From Trueperaceae bacterium (GTDB lineage Bacteria; Deinococcota; Deinococci; Deinococcales; Trueperaceae), in assembly GCA_023954415.1 (NCBI GenBank), contig JAMLIB010000001.1:204001-268000 (forward strand): a stretch of DNA of 64,000 nucleotides, read 5' to 3'. The notes beneath the pieces are model-generated. The model was not told where the DNA came from, made no database searches, and was given only the letters and a program-made list of their open reading frames with translations. Shown here one piece after another: positions 33,949-40,789 of the stretch (its first letter is position 1; each line of letters opens with the position of its first letter). Position numbers and translations under genes: made by a program.

Positions 33949-34581
33949 CTACAGGTAGTGAGGTTTGGGCGGTTCGTCCGCGCCGCCCGCGGCCCCCGCC
34001 GCACCCCAGGCCAACGCGCTGGCTTCCGGTACCACGGGCGTCGCGGTGCCGTTCGCCGCGACGACGGTGCCGTACTCGAGGAGGGGGACGCCGGGATACG
34101 CGGTGGCCAACTCCGAGCGAGCGAGCTTGCGTGGCGCCTCCAGCTCCGCATAGCTCACCGCCCACGGCTGCGGGTCGCGGCGCTCCAGGAGCTGAGCGTA
34201 GGCGTTGCCGCGGCGCGCGTCGCTCGCGGCGACGACGCGCGCGCTGGGGGCCACCAACGCGGCCGGCATGGCGGCGAGGCTCGAGACCCCGACGCACCGG
34301 ACGTCCCAGGCGCGGGCGATGCCGAGGGCGGTCGCCACGCCCACACGCACGCCCGTGTACGAGCCGGGCCCGACCCCGACGCCGACGGCGGCGAAGTCGC
34401 GCGCCGCGGCGCCGCTGGCGCGGAGCAAGGCCGCCAGCGCCTCGACGACGAGCGCAGCGTGCGCGCGGCCCACGTCGTCGGACGTGGCCGCCAGCGTGCC
34501 GCTTCCCGGGTCTACGACGGCGAGGGCCAGGTGCGTCGTCGAGCAGTCGATCCCGAGCAGCAGGGGGCCGCCGCCGCTCAC
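33949..34581 (-). CDS. tsaB: tRNA t6A biosynthesis protein TsaB
   Basis: 210 residues, inactive ASKHA-fold partner of TsaD in N6-threonylcarbamoyl-adenosine synthesis at tRNA A37. LLGIDCSTTHLALAVVD at the N-terminus, GVGPGSYTGVRVGVATALGIA and VVAASDARRGNAYAQ are diagnostic. GTG start overlaps the tsaE stop as GTGA. The C-terminal region is short, as is common in TsaB. tsaE lies directly upstream; tsaD and tsaC are not in the window. Confidence 0.92.
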   Translation of the reverse strand: MSGGGPLLLGIDCSTTHLALAVVDPGSGTLAATSDDVGRAHAALVVEALAALLRASGAAARDFAAVGVGVGPGSYTGVRVGVATALGIARAWDVRCVGVSSLAAMPAALVAPSARVVAASDARRGNAYAQLLERRDPQPWAVSYAELEAPRKLARSELATAYPGVPLLEYGTVVAANGTATPVVPEASALAWGAAGAAGGADEPPKPHYL

Positions 34582-35105
34582 GCTCCGGTACTCTCCTTCG
34601 CGGTGCCGGTCTGGTCGTCGCCGGTGCCGGTCCGTTCGTGCGTGGGGCCGTGCGTCCGCAACCAGCGCGCCTGGCGCGACGGTCCCGCCGTGCCCGGCGC
34701 GGCGGGCGCGAACGAGAAGGCCAGCTGCCACGCTTCCGGGTAGGCCTCCAGCAGCCCCTCGCCCCACTCGACCACGACGAGGCGTGCCCGGGAGCCGTAG
34801 TCGTCGAGCATGGCGCCCGCCAGACCCGCGCCCCCGGCGAGCCGGTAGGCGTCCAGGTGGACGAGGGGACCTTCCGGCGATGGGTACTCGTGCACCAGCG
34901 TGTAAGTAGGGCTCGTCACGGGCGCCGCAACGCCCAGGTGAGAGGCGAGCGCCTGGGTGAACGTCGTCTTCCCGGAACCGAGCGGCCCTGAGAGCACGAG
35001 CAGCGCGCCGGGCGGCAGCGCCGCCAGCGCCTCGCCGGCGAGGCGCTCGGTGTCTCCCAGCGTGGTCAGGGGGATGGGCCGCTCCGCCTCCGCCCCGCCG
35101 CTCAC
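34578..35105 (-). CDS. tsaE: tRNA t6A ATPase TsaE
   Basis: 175 residues. Walker A LSGPLGSGKTTFTQALA, switch region SPTYTLVHEY, the HLDAYRL motif and VVVEWGEG (Walker B-like) are all typical. Binds the TsaB-TsaD dimer and uses ATP to reset it. The C-terminal ~35 residues (TGTGDDQTGTAKESTGA end) are a low-complexity Thr/Gly tail beyond the usual length. GTG start overlaps the coiled-coil gene stop as GTGA, so tsaE is coupled to the roadblock locus. Confidence 0.93.
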   Translation of the reverse strand: MSGGAEAERPIPLTTLGDTERLAGEALAALPPGALLVLSGPLGSGKTTFTQALASHLGVAAPVTSPTYTLVHEYPSPEGPLVHLDAYRLAGGAGLAGAMLDDYGSRARLVVVEWGEGLLEAYPEAWQLAFSFAPAAPGTAGPSRQARWLRTHGPTHERTGTGDDQTGTAKESTGA

Positions 35106-37969
35106 GGCTCGGAGCTACCCGCTAGCGGCCAGCCGCGGGCGTCGCGCCGCACCCGGCGCACCAGGGCGCCGGCGTGGTCGGCGTCGAACGTGCGCAGCAG
35201 GATCCGCTCCCCGTTCGCCAGGAGGACGAGGAGGAGGACCTCGTCGCCGTCGTGCGCTTGCAGCGCGTCGATGCCGGGCAGCTCGGCGGCGGCGGCCCGC
35301 GCGAGGCGCACCATGCCGGCCGCCGGCGACTGCTCGTCGTCCCGGCCCTCGTGGGCGAGGACACTCCCGTCGCTCGCCAGCCACGTGGCGCTCGTCAGGC
35401 GCTCGTCGTCGACGTAGTCGGCCAGCACCTGGCCGCGTTCGAACGCCGGCTCGGTGGCCGGCCTCGACCCCGTGACCTTCAGGAGACCGAGGACGTCGTC
35501 GAGCAGGCCGCCGCTGACGACCCTGTCAGCGACGAGCCTGGTCGCCTCGTACTCGTCCTTGAGGTCGACGAGCATGCGCTCGGCTTGGGAGAGGGCGCTG
35601 TCCAGCTGGAGCTGGAGGCCACGGGAGAGGCGCGGGAGCGCCTCGCGCTGCGAGTCGAGGTGGCTGAGGATCCGGCGCACCGTGGTCACGCCGTCGCTGT
35701 TCAGCTTCGCGACGGGCTCGAGGGCCACGAGGGCGGCGTCGAGGCGGGCGGGCATGCCGGCCAGCGTCTGCTCGGCGGCGCGCTCCAGCTCCGCGAGGCG
35801 CTCGGCCGCCCGCTTGAGGGTGTGCGGGGCCTCCCCGGCCTCGAGGTCGCGGCGCGCCTCGGCAAGGAGGTCCTTGAGCTCGGCGCCGGCGCCGGAGTTC
35901 TCGAACGGCGAGGCGGCTTGCGAGAGGCGTTTGAGCTCGTCGACCTGCTCCTGGCGTTGCGCCTCGCGTTCGTAACGCAGCGCGGCGTGGAGCTGCGCCA
36001 GGTCCGGGTAGCGGTCGAGCTCGAGGCCGAGGAGCGCCTTCTGGATGTGCTCCATGAGCGGGTGGTTGCCGAGCTCGGTCGCCTCCTCCGCCAGACGCAT
36101 CAGGCGCCCGCGGAGGCTGCCGCTCAGCTCCTCCCTCAGCGCCTCGATCTCCGTGCCGAGCGACTCGATGTCGGAGTCCTCCAAGGGCGCTGCGGCCTTG
36201 CGCTCGTCGAGGAGCAACCCAGCGACGGCCGCCGCGCTCTCCTGCTCGTCGATCAGACGCGTTACCTCGCTGCGGAGCGCGGCCGCGCGGTCGCCGAGGG
36301 TCGCGGTGACCGGCAGGCGCTCCAGCTTGGCCCTGAGGGCGTTGAGCCGCGCCAGGCGCCGCTCGCTGGCCTCGGTGGCGCGCTCGGCGAGGCTCCGCTC
36401 CAAGGCCTCCTCGGCCTCGCGCGCCGCCGAGACGAGGTCGTGGGCCACGGCGCTCTGCTCCTGCGCCAGCCGCAGCTGGTCGATCTCCGAGCGCAGCCGT
36501 TCCACGTGCTCGCGCACGCCTTCGTCGTCCTGGCGGTTGGTCAGCGTGGCTTCCAGCCTGACGAGCAGCTGGGCCTGCGCCTCCAGGCTCTGCTCGCGCG
36601 CCTCGTCCTCGCGGTCCATGACCTCGGCCTGCTCGCTGGCGAGCTGGTGCAGGCGCCGGACGTGCTCGACGTCCGTGTAGCTCGGCAGGCCGGACTCGAG
36701 GATCCCGAGCGTGACGCGCACGGCCTGCCCGAGCTCCGTAGTGTCGACCTCGGGCCGCAGCCCGTCGATAGCCGAGCGGAGCTCGGTGAACTCCTCCTTC
36801 AGGTCGGTGCGCAGCGCGGCGCCCGTCGCTTCGAGGTCCTGCCTGAACCCGGTGAGCTCGCCGGCCACCGACCGCTCCGCTTCCAGCTCGCCGCGCAGCT
36901 CCGCGAGCCGCTTGCCGAGCTCGGGGTAGTACTCGATGACGGCGCCGAACTCGCCCTCCATGGCCCGGAGGTCGTGGCGTTCTGCCGCGATGTCGAGGAG
37001 CCGCATGCGGTCCTCGAACTCGGCGTCCCGCACGCTAGGTGGCACGACGTCGAAGGTCCGCGGCGCCGGCGTGTCCGCGAGCGCGGCCGCATCCGGTTCC
37101 GGCCCCGACCGCTCCGGTTCGGTGCGGCCGGCGGCCGACGCCCCGGTCGGGGCGGCACCGGGCCGCGCGTGGCGGTCGGCGCCCTGCTCGGCCACGCCGT
37201 CAGGCGCCTCGACTTCGGGCGTAGGCGTCGCGTCCGCCGCGGTCGTTCCGGCGCCATGGACCGCCCCGCCCAGCTGCGCGGCCTCGGCTTCTGCTGCGCG
37301 CCTGAGCTCGCGCGCCTGACGATGGGCCCGTTCGAGCTCGGCGGGCGCGAGCTGGCGCTGAGCTTGCGCGGCCTGTACCTGGTTGACGAGGGTCTCGAAG
37401 CGCCGCACGCGCGGGCCGCCCAGCTCCCTGACGGCCTCGAGCGTCTCGGCGAGCTCCCCCAGGTCGCGGGCTTGCAGGACGAGCTGGTCCTCGAGCTTCT
37501 GCTTGACGACGACGAGCTGCTCCTCGGCCTCCTGCAAGACGGCTAGGGCCGAGCGCCCCGCGCCGTACTCGCCGTCGACCAGTTGCACCTGCGCCCGCAG
37601 CTTCTGGACCTCCGGCCACTCGAAGTAGAGGTTGAACGGCCGCAGCTCCGCCTGGACGGCGGCGAGCCGCTGACCGACGGCCTCGAGGCTCGACTCGGAA
37701 GCGCTCGCGTCGCCCGGCGTGGCGGCGGAGGTGCCCGTGAGACGCTCCAGGATGCCGGCGACCGTCTCCTTGGCTTGCGTCACGGGCATCATGACCTGGA
37801 GCTGCCTGAAGACCTGCGCCTTCATGACCCTCTCGATATCGGCGAGGTCGGCGGTCTCGGGGGCGCGTCCGAGCTGGCGCAGGCCGTCCTTGAGCGCGCG
37901 GGAGACGATCCTCGGGGAGAGCACCGACTCTAGTTCCATCACGGCGGCCTGGTAGACGGAAGTGGTCAT
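35102..37969 (-). CDS. Large coiled-coil protein with roadblock-like C-terminus
   Basis: 955 residues, function unknown. Residues 1-75 form a helical domain (SVYQAAVMELESVLSPRIVSR...) that resembles the N-terminus of the 39923-40789 protein. Then come long coiled coils (about 85-230 and 330-840), broken by a Pro/Ala/Glu-rich disordered stretch (about 235-310). The last ~100 residues (LTSATWLASDGSVLAHEG, ALQAHDGDEVLLLVLLANGERILLRTFDADHAGALVRRV) look like a roadblock/LC7 fold. No membrane segment. Start set at ATG because MTTSVY aligns with MPNDVY of the paralogue; a GTG 9 nt upstream is possible. It is coupled to tsaE. Confidence 0.8.
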   Translation of the reverse strand: MTTSVYQAAVMELESVLSPRIVSRALKDGLRQLGRAPETADLADIERVMKAQVFRQLQVMMPVTQAKETVAGILERLTGTSAATPGDASASESSLEAVGQRLAAVQAELRPFNLYFEWPEVQKLRAQVQLVDGEYGAGRSALAVLQEAEEQLVVVKQKLEDQLVLQARDLGELAETLEAVRELGGPRVRRFETLVNQVQAAQAQRQLAPAELERAHRQARELRRAAEAEAAQLGGAVHGAGTTAADATPTPEVEAPDGVAEQGADRHARPGAAPTGASAAGRTEPERSGPEPDAAALADTPAPRTFDVVPPSVRDAEFEDRMRLLDIAAERHDLRAMEGEFGAVIEYYPELGKRLAELRGELEAERSVAGELTGFRQDLEATGAALRTDLKEEFTELRSAIDGLRPEVDTTELGQAVRVTLGILESGLPSYTDVEHVRRLHQLASEQAEVMDREDEAREQSLEAQAQLLVRLEATLTNRQDDEGVREHVERLRSEIDQLRLAQEQSAVAHDLVSAAREAEEALERSLAERATEASERRLARLNALRAKLERLPVTATLGDRAAALRSEVTRLIDEQESAAAVAGLLLDERKAAAPLEDSDIESLGTEIEALREELSGSLRGRLMRLAEEATELGNHPLMEHIQKALLGLELDRYPDLAQLHAALRYEREAQRQEQVDELKRLSQAASPFENSGAGAELKDLLAEARRDLEAGEAPHTLKRAAERLAELERAAEQTLAGMPARLDAALVALEPVAKLNSDGVTTVRRILSHLDSQREALPRLSRGLQLQLDSALSQAERMLVDLKDEYEATRLVADRVVSGGLLDDVLGLLKVTGSRPATEPAFERGQVLADYVDDERLTSATWLASDGSVLAHEGRDDEQSPAAGMVRLARAAAAELPGIDALQAHDGDEVLLLVLLANGERILLRTFDADHAGALVRRVRRDARGWPLAGSSEP

Positions 37970-38024
37970 GACGGTCACGTGGCGCCGCCACCACTCGACC
38001 GCTCACCGCGGCTGCCGTATGGCA

Positions 38025-39926
38025 TCAGAACTCCTCGTCCCAGTCGATGGTGGTGTTGCCGGTGCTGCTCTTCTTGGGCACCGCGGCGGCGGGCGCCGGG
38101 GCGACGCTCTTCTTCTGGCCGCCGAGGAGGCCGAACTGCACGCAGATGCCGCGCAGACCCACGATCGCGAGCACGAGCGCGACGAGGACGAGCACGGCCC
38201 ACACGGCCTGGCCCGTCAGGCCGCCGAACATCGACCAGCGGCCGAGGTCGGGGAGCCACGCCATGTCGACGTAGCCGGAGAGGAGGTCGACCAAGGCCAC
38301 GATCCCCTGGTAGAAGGTCGGGACCAGGAGGAGGAACAGCGCCCAGCCGACGAGCCGCCAGTTGCGGTTGCTGCCGCCGAAGGCCATCTTCAGGAGCACG
38401 AGCGGGACGATGGCCAGGAGCGCGAGGACGATGTACACGACGTTGCGAGGCAAGCCGGACCAGGCGGTCGCGACCGTCGTCTCGACGGCGTCAGCGACGC
38501 CGACGGGCTCGCCGGCGAAGGCGCCCCTGATGATGCCGGTCCTGGCGCCGACCAGCGCGGCGTCCGTGGTGGACAGGCGCGCCGTGTCGGCGAGCGTGGC
38601 GAGGAGGTCATCGGTGCCTTGCGCCACGTCCGGGGCGACCTGCCTCAGGCTCGGCGCCAGGACGGCGCCGTAAGTCGAGGCGATACCGGTCAGGGCGGCG
38701 TGGGCCTCCGTCTGGTCCCCGCGCCGGACGCCGGCGAGCATGCGGCCCGCGCCCGCGTCGAGCTCGGTGAAGACGGCCCCTAGGTCGGCGAAGCCGGCGT
38801 CGACGACGCGCTCCGCCTCGCGGCCGGCCAGGGCGCGCGGGACGCCGGCCCCGACGAGGTCGAGGCTCACCGCGTCCACGTGCGTCCGGCGCTCCTCGGC
38901 CTCGATCTCCGCCAACCGGGCGGCGACGGCTTGTTCCAGGTCCGGGCCCGTGAGGGCGCCGTCGCCCTGCGCCTCGGCCGGTTGCGCGGCGGTCTCGGCG
39001 GTCTCGGCGGTCTCGACCGTGGCCGGCTCCTCGGCGACCGGCTCGCTCTGGGCGCCGGCCACCACCTCCGGTAGCACGTCAGGGGCGAGGGCGGCGGGTT
39101 CCTGCGCCGCGACCTCGTCCGTGGGCTGGGTAGCGGTCTGGTCGGCGGCTCCGGCGTCGGTCGCGGCGCTGCGGGCGGCGGCGGCCAGGCGGGTGAGGGA
39201 GGTCGTGGCGCGCTCGGTGGCGGCGTCGAGCTCCGCGCGGTCGCCGGCGACGAGCGCCTGCGCCGCGCCGACGAGGTCGCGGTTCAGCGTGGCGTCGACG
39301 CGCGGGGAGTCCTGCACGAGCAGCGAGTCGCCGTAGGCCTTGGCGAGGCTGACGTACGCGCCGTCGCGGTCATCGTCGAAGAGCCGCGCGGCCACCTCGA
39401 GCTCGGCAGCCACGGCGTCGGCGGCGCCCGCCTCGAAGGCGAGCCTGAGCGCTGCGGAGGAGCCGGCGCTCGTGATCTCGGAGACGGCGTCCGCGCTGAA
39501 CGCGAGACTCCTGGCCAGGTGCTCGAGGCGTCCGCGCGCGAGGGCGAGGTCGCCGTCGGCGTTCGAGAACGCCGAGTCGAGGACGAGGCGGCTGAAGCCG
39601 CCACCGAGCACGGCGGTCTGGACGGCCATGTCGGTGCGGCTCTGGTTCTCGACGGCCACGCGTGTGCGCTCGAACGTGCGCTCCATCGCTTGCACGAGGT
39701 TAGAGCTGGTGGCGTCGCGCGAGAGGGTCAGGAGCGCGTTGAGGGCGCGCTCCAGCTCGTCGCGCGCTTGCAGGCCGTCACCCGGCACCGAGGCGGTGGC
39801 GACCTGCAGGTTCTCGAGGGCTAGGTCGTAGCGCTGGAGAAGCGAATCCTCCTGCGCGAACGCGGCTCCCGACCAAAGCGCCACGACCAGCACCGCGGTG
39901 GCGAGAGAGAGTTGACGGCGGATCAT
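38025..39926 (-). CDS. Membrane protein with large exported helical domain
   Basis: 633 residues, not recognised. Signal peptide about 1-24 (WSGAAFA|QED), an exported all-helical region of ~240 residues rich in Ala, Asp and Arg, a disordered Glu/Ala/Thr-Pro linker (about 265-335, with TAETAETAA), a second helical segment (about 340-490), then three hydrophobic stretches near 505-525, 535-570 and 590-615. A cytoplasmic tail with Lys/Pro and the acidic end TTIDWDEEF follows. ATG overlaps the upstream roadblock gene as ATGA; 55 nt separate it from the coiled-coil gene. It may be the membrane anchor or sensor of the locus. Confidence 0.75.
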   Translation of the reverse strand: MIRRQLSLATAVLVVALWSGAAFAQEDSLLQRYDLALENLQVATASVPGDGLQARDELERALNALLTLSRDATSSNLVQAMERTFERTRVAVENQSRTDMAVQTAVLGGGFSRLVLDSAFSNADGDLALARGRLEHLARSLAFSADAVSEITSAGSSAALRLAFEAGAADAVAAELEVAARLFDDDRDGAYVSLAKAYGDSLLVQDSPRVDATLNRDLVGAAQALVAGDRAELDAATERATTSLTRLAAAARSAATDAGAADQTATQPTDEVAAQEPAALAPDVLPEVVAGAQSEPVAEEPATVETAETAETAAQPAEAQGDGALTGPDLEQAVAARLAEIEAEERRTHVDAVSLDLVGAGVPRALAGREAERVVDAGFADLGAVFTELDAGAGRMLAGVRRGDQTEAHAALTGIASTYGAVLAPSLRQVAPDVAQGTDDLLATLADTARLSTTDAALVGARTGIIRGAFAGEPVGVADAVETTVATAWSGLPRNVVYIVLALLAIVPLVLLKMAFGGSNRNWRLVGWALFLLLVPTFYQGIVALVDLLSGYVDMAWLPDLGRWSMFGGLTGQAVWAVLVLVALVLAIVGLRGICVQFGLLGGQKKSVAPAPAAAVPKKSSTGNTTIDWDEEF

Positions 39927-40789
39927 GCAGCCTCCTCGAGAGCGGCGCGCGCGTTCAGGACGGCACCGATGTTGACGGTTCCTTGCGTGACGACGACCAA
40001 GCTGTCCTCACCGAACGGGAACAGGAAGAGCACACCGCTCGGGTGCTCGACCGACAGGGCGCGCAAGTCGCTCGAGCGCGCCAGAAGGTGACGAGAAGAA
40101 AGTACCAGACCGGGGAGGCGTTCCGGGTCGACGCCTTCCCCGCGTTGCAGGAGGATGGCGCTGCGCCGGAGCACGACGACCTGCCGGACCGCCTCGATGT
40201 CGCCGAAGAGCTTCAGCACCCTGCCGAGCGCCGGCTCGGCGAGGCGGGCGACCTTGCGCCGCGGCGCCGGCTCGGCGGCGCGGGACGTGCGGCGCCGCTT
40301 CCGCGGCACGACGGGCGCGCGACCGGCCAGGCGGCCGTCTGCGGCGTCGGGAACGAACTGGGTGCTCGGCAACGTGGCGAGGGGGCCGGTCTGGGCGGTC
40401 GTCGGCGCGGGCAGGGTGGGCCCCGGGTCCGTCGTGAGCTCGACGGCGGCCAGTCGCTCGGACGTCAACGAGACGTACGCGCGTTCGGCCTCGGCCTCCG
40501 CGATCAAGGCGTCGGCCACGGGCGTGCGGTGCTTGGGCTGAGGTGGCGCCGAGGCGGCCAGCTCGTCCGCTAGGAGCTTCAGGTGGTAGGTGAGGGCGGC
40601 ACGCGGGAACGTGCCGGCGAGGCCCTTGCGCACGGCGCCCGCCAGGAGGTGTCGCATGGTCGAGACGGTCACGGAGTCACCGTCGTAGCCGGCGGAGGCG
40701 ATGGCCTGGTCGAGGACCCCGGCCGCGACCCGTGGCGAGACGATGGCGGAGAGCGCCGTGTGCGTCTTGACGTAGACATCGTTCGGCAT
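39923..40789 (-). CDS. Roadblock/LC7-like protein with paralogous N-terminal domain
   Basis: 288 residues. N-terminal helical domain (about 1-75: NDVYVKTHTALSAIVSPRVAAGVLDQAI...) shared with the coiled-coil protein, a basic Pro-rich linker (about 110-190; VPRKRRRTSRA), and a C-terminal roadblock/LC7-like domain (VRQVVVLRRSAILLQRGEG, SGVLFLFPFGEDSLVVVTQGTVNIGAVLNARAALE). LC7 proteins in bacteria (MglB type) pair with small GTPases; no GTPase is seen here. AAGGAGGGCT precedes the ATG. TATGCT at 40943-40938 is a possible -10 with a ~140-nt leader. Confidence 0.75.
   Translation of the reverse strand: MPNDVYVKTHTALSAIVSPRVAAGVLDQAIASAGYDGDSVTVSTMRHLLAGAVRKGLAGTFPRAALTYHLKLLADELAASAPPQPKHRTPVADALIAEAEAERAYVSLTSERLAAVELTTDPGPTLPAPTTAQTGPLATLPSTQFVPDAADGRLAGRAPVVPRKRRRTSRAAEPAPRRKVARLAEPALGRVLKLFGDIEAVRQVVVLRRSAILLQRGEGVDPERLPGLVLSSRHLLARSSDLRALSVEHPSGVLFLFPFGEDSLVVVTQGTVNIGAVLNARAALEEAA

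Follow-up and report, generated by a model that had tools for sequence, protein, structure and literature searches.

A conserved, undescribed three-gene system of Deinococcota whose distribution follows that of the polarity GTPase MglA

Three consecutive genes, here called g1, g2 and g3, occupy positions 35102-40789 on the minus strand of the window (the whole 64,000-nucleotide stretch of DNA that was analysed), where the initial annotation had placed them. The g1 and g2 genes overlap by ATGA (39923-39926) and the GTGA overlap reported between g3 and tsaE is present (35102-35105). The hrcA gene lies upstream of the trio, and tsaE, tsaB and mreB lie downstream. The genome belongs to Deinococcota, its named relatives being MAGs of Trueperaceae, Deinococcales and Thermaceae. 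The features are as follows.

39923..40789, minus strand: g1, 288 aa; N-terminal helical domain, variable linker and roadblock/LC7 domain
40541..40789, minus strand: g1 N-domain (residues 1-83); homologous to the g3 N-domain, five helices in the AF2 model
39926..40237, minus strand: g1 LC7 domain (residues 185-288); AF2 fold, Foldseek and profile match
38025..39926, minus strand: g2, 633 aa; exported membrane protein with three TM helices
39144..39845, minus strand: g2 periplasmic helical domain 1 (residues 28-261), with a VQDSPR motif; AF2 pLDDT about 97
38457..38945, minus strand: g2 periplasmic helical domain 2 (residues 328-490); from AF2, missing in Truepera
38136..38453, minus strand: g2 membrane domain; TM1 492-516, TM2 521-550, TM3 570-597
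38028..38051, minus strand: g2 C-terminal peptide TIDWDEEF; candidate docking motif
35102..37969, minus strand: g3, 955 aa; N-domain, conserved helical segment, long helical middle and LC7-like C-terminus
37718..37969, minus strand: g3 N-domain (residues 1-84); hhalign match to the g1 N-domain
37286..37678, minus strand: most conserved segment of g3 (residues 98-228), PFNLYFEWPEVQKLRAQ...QKLEDQLVLQARDL; invariant columns in alignments A2 and A5
35120..35458, minus strand: g3 C-terminal LC7-like domain (residues 838-950); profile matches and homology to the g1 LC7 domain
34578..35105, minus strand: tsaE; GTGA coupling to g3, genomic context outside the trio system

The relationship proposed between the N-domains of g1 and g3 was borne out by hhalign over 86 gap-free columns (E=3.6e-13, or 6e-14 with a larger g3 alignment). 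The ~85-residue helical domain common to g1 and g3 is a new domain. The roadblock/LC7-like C-termini claimed for both proteins were also recovered. The AF2 model of g1 has a mean pLDDT of 79.8, with its domains around 90, and its C-domain follows the order a-b-b-a-b-b-b-a of the LC7 fold, mostly at pLDDT >90. Foldseek gave 114 matches to this domain at E<=0.001 (best E=4e-6), the best 50 of the 114 all being roadblock/LC7, and the g1 family profile matched the LC7 chain 7f8m (E=1.8e-4). The LC7 assignment of the g3 C-terminus comes from profiles, which matched CvnB5 (E=2.6e-4) and an Asgard Robl_LC7 (6.7e-4), while the profile-profile comparison of the g1 and g3 C-domains gave E=1.1e-7 and its negative control, an N-domain compared with a C-domain, returned nothing. 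The window proteins had no PF03259 match in Pfam; weak matches appeared in 6 of 27 g1 family members (best 4.6e-4) and in 1 of 24 g3 members (best 0.0046).

Between the g1 domains, the linker described as basic and Pro-rich is unconserved within the family. The long coiled coils ascribed to g3 stand as a helix-rich middle, where family-averaged hydrophobicity has a period of about 3.5 in a number of segments, though not in every one; the heptad signal is weak in the single sequence and better in the family average. A filament-like nature had also been proposed, and we found nothing behind it except this helical content. Longer g3 proteins of 1057-1130 aa occur in loci L037, L054, L064 and L091, and in at least L037 and L054 the extra length is a long insert rich in E/R/A/Q, within the helical middle, that resembles a long single helix. 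Locus L080 (4147-6522, minus strand) encodes a third N-domain protein of 791 aa, whose middle is acidic and which does not match LC7. Its gene has typA and a SpoU methylase gene as neighbors, and its genome also has the full trio.

The AF2 model of g2 is of high confidence. For this protein we could confirm a signal peptide, exported helical domains (two in the model), three TM helices and, in the cytosol, an acidic end, which is modeled as a disordered tail. Conserved motifs on the cytosolic side are a loop GGxNRNW (516-526) and GLRGICxQFGLL at the exit of TM3. A Foldseek search of the g2 model against PDB folds returned nothing at E<=0.001; chemoreceptor-type helical bundles were considered as the fold and, since their matches were weak, were not used. 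WDEEF or a close variant, which the initial annotation had not named, ends g2 in all 77 intact copies from g3-bearing genomes and in none of the three copies from g3-less genomes, and the linker ahead of it is unconserved. Short C-terminal peptides that bind partners are familiar from SSB and FtsZ, which the g2 tail resembles in kind and not in sequence. In L042 (8065-10085, minus strand), from a single-contig genome, a frameshift splits g2 into two ORFs and the WDEEF tail is kept. We also noticed an invariant FEWPE-type motif in g3 (window 37589-37639, minus strand) that is loosely like the WDEEF tail and might act as an internal competitor for the same site.

The neighborhood search that the initial annotation had suggested as a check found the trio throughout the phylum. 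Our sample comprised 111 Deinococcota genomes, none identifiable as Deinococcus, among which g2 occurs in 107 and g3 in 104; the g1 profile hits 86 of the 94 genomes that are >=85% complete, a count that includes g3 N-domains in a few genomes. Trueperaceae and several further families have the order hrcA - g1 - g2 - g3 - tsaE. The Thermus-like and Meiothermus-like genera (g20 and g25) keep g1 next to g2 and have g3 at another site, where it adjoins mscS and a RelA/SpoT gene or different genes; that g3 is kept though separated from g1-g2 speaks for a functional bond and not for linkage. In L085 (9792-10475) and L090 (5054-5314), hrcA is separated from g1 or g2 by ThiS/MoaE-like and MoaD-like genes. 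Searches of Pfam, NCBIfam and PDB sequences gave no names for the trio proteins, tblastn against plasmids gave no match, and no description of the trio was found in the literature searched, the coverage of which stops short of subscription papers.

Bacterial LC7 proteins usually pair with a small GTPase, and the initial annotation had remarked that none is present. This is true of the locus, but the genome encodes mglB-mglA on another contig (C6, the trio being on C1); a Ras match on contig C5, considered as a small GTPase, proved to be IF-2. Across the loci seen, mglA never adjoins the trio. We scanned the phylum with MglA itself as the query, a PF00025 scan being dominated by translation GTPases. 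Six genomes that are 89-98% complete have no MglA, nor do six others of <=85% completeness, and the former six are exactly the genomes from which g3 and g1 are both absent. Among the 91 genomes at least 86% complete, a cut set after the data had been seen, 84 have both g3 and MglA, six have neither, none has g3 without MglA, and the single one with MglA and no g3 has a contig edge there. The cooccurrence of g3 and MglA is significant in Fisher tests that ignore ancestry (p=1e-8 at >=86% completeness; p=2.7e-6 over all 111 genomes). In an IF-2 tree, the losses fall in two clades, one made up of G007 and G008 and the other of four genomes from genus g7, in whose sister G034 nothing has been lost, so that we count two co-loss events and not six, both within Trueperaceae. 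The g7 losers retain the type IV pilus (T4P) ATPases, so that the link of the trio is with MglA and not with pili themselves. By its distribution, which follows MglA within Deinococcota only, the trio is a candidate part of the MglA module, and we regard this link as strong but correlative.

Partner loss has also dissected g2 in nature. Genomes G011, G023 and G031 keep EVE-hrcA-tsaE-tsaB-mreB together with g2, and only g1 and g3 are gone. The leftover g2 proteins retain 34-37 of 48 conserved periplasmic positions, compared with 33-34 in divergent intact copies, and on the cytosolic side they retain 1/5 positions of the loop, 2-4/8 of the TM3 exit and 0/5 of the tail. Truepera has lost g1 and retains g3 and MglA; its g2 keeps 4/5 of the tail, 1-2/5 of the loop and 0-1/8 of the TM3-exit motifs. 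This pattern of sequence decay suggests the tail of g2 as the docking site of g3 and the loops of g2 as that of g1. Each pattern represents one lineage, and the Truepera g2 is also without the second periplasmic domain, so that the decay of its loops may not be owed to the loss of g1.

Based on these results, we find it somewhat probable that the trio forms an envelope complex of Deinococcota acting together with the Ras-like GTPase MglA, with pilus polarity as its probable output. In our working model, g2 would sit in the inner membrane with its two helical domains outside and its short motifs inside, acting as an anchor and perhaps as a sensor. The g3 protein would dock on the WDEEF tail and g1 on the membrane-proximal cytosolic loops, and their LC7 domains would pair with each other or with MglB, yielding a platform that binds or regulates MglA. 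The activity of MglA, probably in type IV pilus polarity, would thereby be tied to the place or state of the envelope. Physical binding, regulation of MglA and the pilus output are what we infer from computed domains, homologies, conservation, co-loss and motif decay. In favor of the model, g1 and g3 carry LC7, the known fold of MglA partners. Against it count the separation of mglA from the trio and the small number of loss events, all in Trueperaceae, since genome-wide loss could coincide. So does the g3 of G027 and G033, which stops in frame before the LC7 domain (L058:5071-7566 and L060:4902-7364) while MglA stays. A genus mate of these two genomes has a longer g3 (L059). More tentatively, the trio could represent a new class of envelope-to-GTPase coupler, in which g2, a receptor with a new periplasmic fold, would offer two separate docking sites in the cytosol, one to each of two paralogous LC7 partners with a new N-domain in common, and the complex would thereby inform MglA of the places at which the envelope can take pili.

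The trio could instead be a general scaffold of the envelope or of cell shape that does not act via MglA, both having been lost as two lineages changed lifestyle. The trio is indeed near-universal and more widespread than any single behavior, the Trueperaceae loci end in mreB, and G007 and G008 have lost the T4P ATPases as well, as a change of lifestyle could also explain. However, the g7 losers keep MreB, tsaE, tsaB and hrcA, the 3.2-Mb genome of G007 is not a reduced one, and both losses match MglA exactly, which makes a general scaffold rather unlikely in our view. We give still less credence to the idea that the partner of g1 and g3 is a different small GTPase, or that they have no GTPase partner, LC7 being used for dimerization only, as in many LC7 scaffolds. 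Among the g1 Foldseek matches listed, most are Ragulator or other LC7 scaffolds and not MglB; a single MglB sequence aligns with neither C-domain profile, a single-sequence comparison that is uninformative; and Meiothermus has a second Arf-like ORF of 164-209 aa. This second GTPase is not phylum-wide, whereas MglA is and has been co-lost with g3. Finally, that the trio is a conserved operon of unrelated, ordinary neighbors, as the surrounding housekeeping genes hrcA, tsaE and tsaB could suggest, is scarcely credible and largely refuted by the g3 retained unlinked in Thermus and Meiothermus and by the homology of g1 and g3 at both ends, and g2 motifs decay when partners are lost. A complex working with MglA remains our preferred reading, and the membrane-anchored polarity scaffold of the initial annotation, which is partly supported, fits it in all but its filament-like part and gains independent support from the co-loss. 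The outcomes that the initial annotation had named as refuting its reading did not occur, as the N-domains match, both C-termini have LC7 and the trio is conserved.

Several known systems resemble the trio. The MglA/MglB module with RomY or MglC in Myxococcus xanthus, and MglA/MglB in Thermus thermophilus, are alike in having LC7 proteins and a presence tied to MglA; the trio differs in the new N-domain of g1 and g3, the long helical middle of g3 and a membrane receptor of its own that carries the candidate docking peptide. None of the family libraries used places the trio in MglB, MglC or RomY, the latter two being set apart via these libraries; g1 and g3 were further rejected as MglB, as they do not adjoin mglA and have an N-domain beyond the one LC7, and g3 has 955 aa. 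LC7 is the known fold of MglA partners, and a further likeness to the module is that the genes do not lie beside mglA (PMC4316618). Actinobacterial conservons (CvnA-D) likewise combine LC7 and a membrane protein in one operon, and CvnB5 is the best match of the g3 C-terminus, but the trio operon is without histidine kinase, CvnC and GTPase. Ragulator/LAMTOR, which provides the top Foldseek matches of g1, is similar in that its LC7 domains form a membrane-anchored small-GTPase platform; it differs in being eukaryotic and lysosomal, with single-domain LC7 proteins on lipidated p18, and has no membrane subunit in common with the trio. FimV/HubP shares with g2 a periplasmic domain, a TM and an acidic cytosolic part, and functions in polarity and pili (PMC12918733); g2 was not assigned there, having three TM helices, no PDB fold match and no LysM/FimV Pfam match in 24 members.

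RomY was itself discovered through cooccurrence (PMC9481161), and the trio may extend the MglA polarity module much as RomY or MglC does. Orphan MglB-type proteins were flagged as uncharacterized in 2014 (PMC4316618), and MglA/MglB of T. thermophilus affect pilus position, the mechanism of the monopolar bias being described as unclear (PMC12393216, PMC12024867). Together, our results identify the trio as a real, conserved and undescribed system with a specific, testable tie to MglA, whose function we infer. It offers three named genes, found in practically all of the Thermus and Meiothermus genomes sampled, and predictions for a 5-residue peptide and two loop motifs that are specific enough for a tractable strain. 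Its disappearance along with MglA makes the trio a candidate for the missing component by which these cells know their front end.
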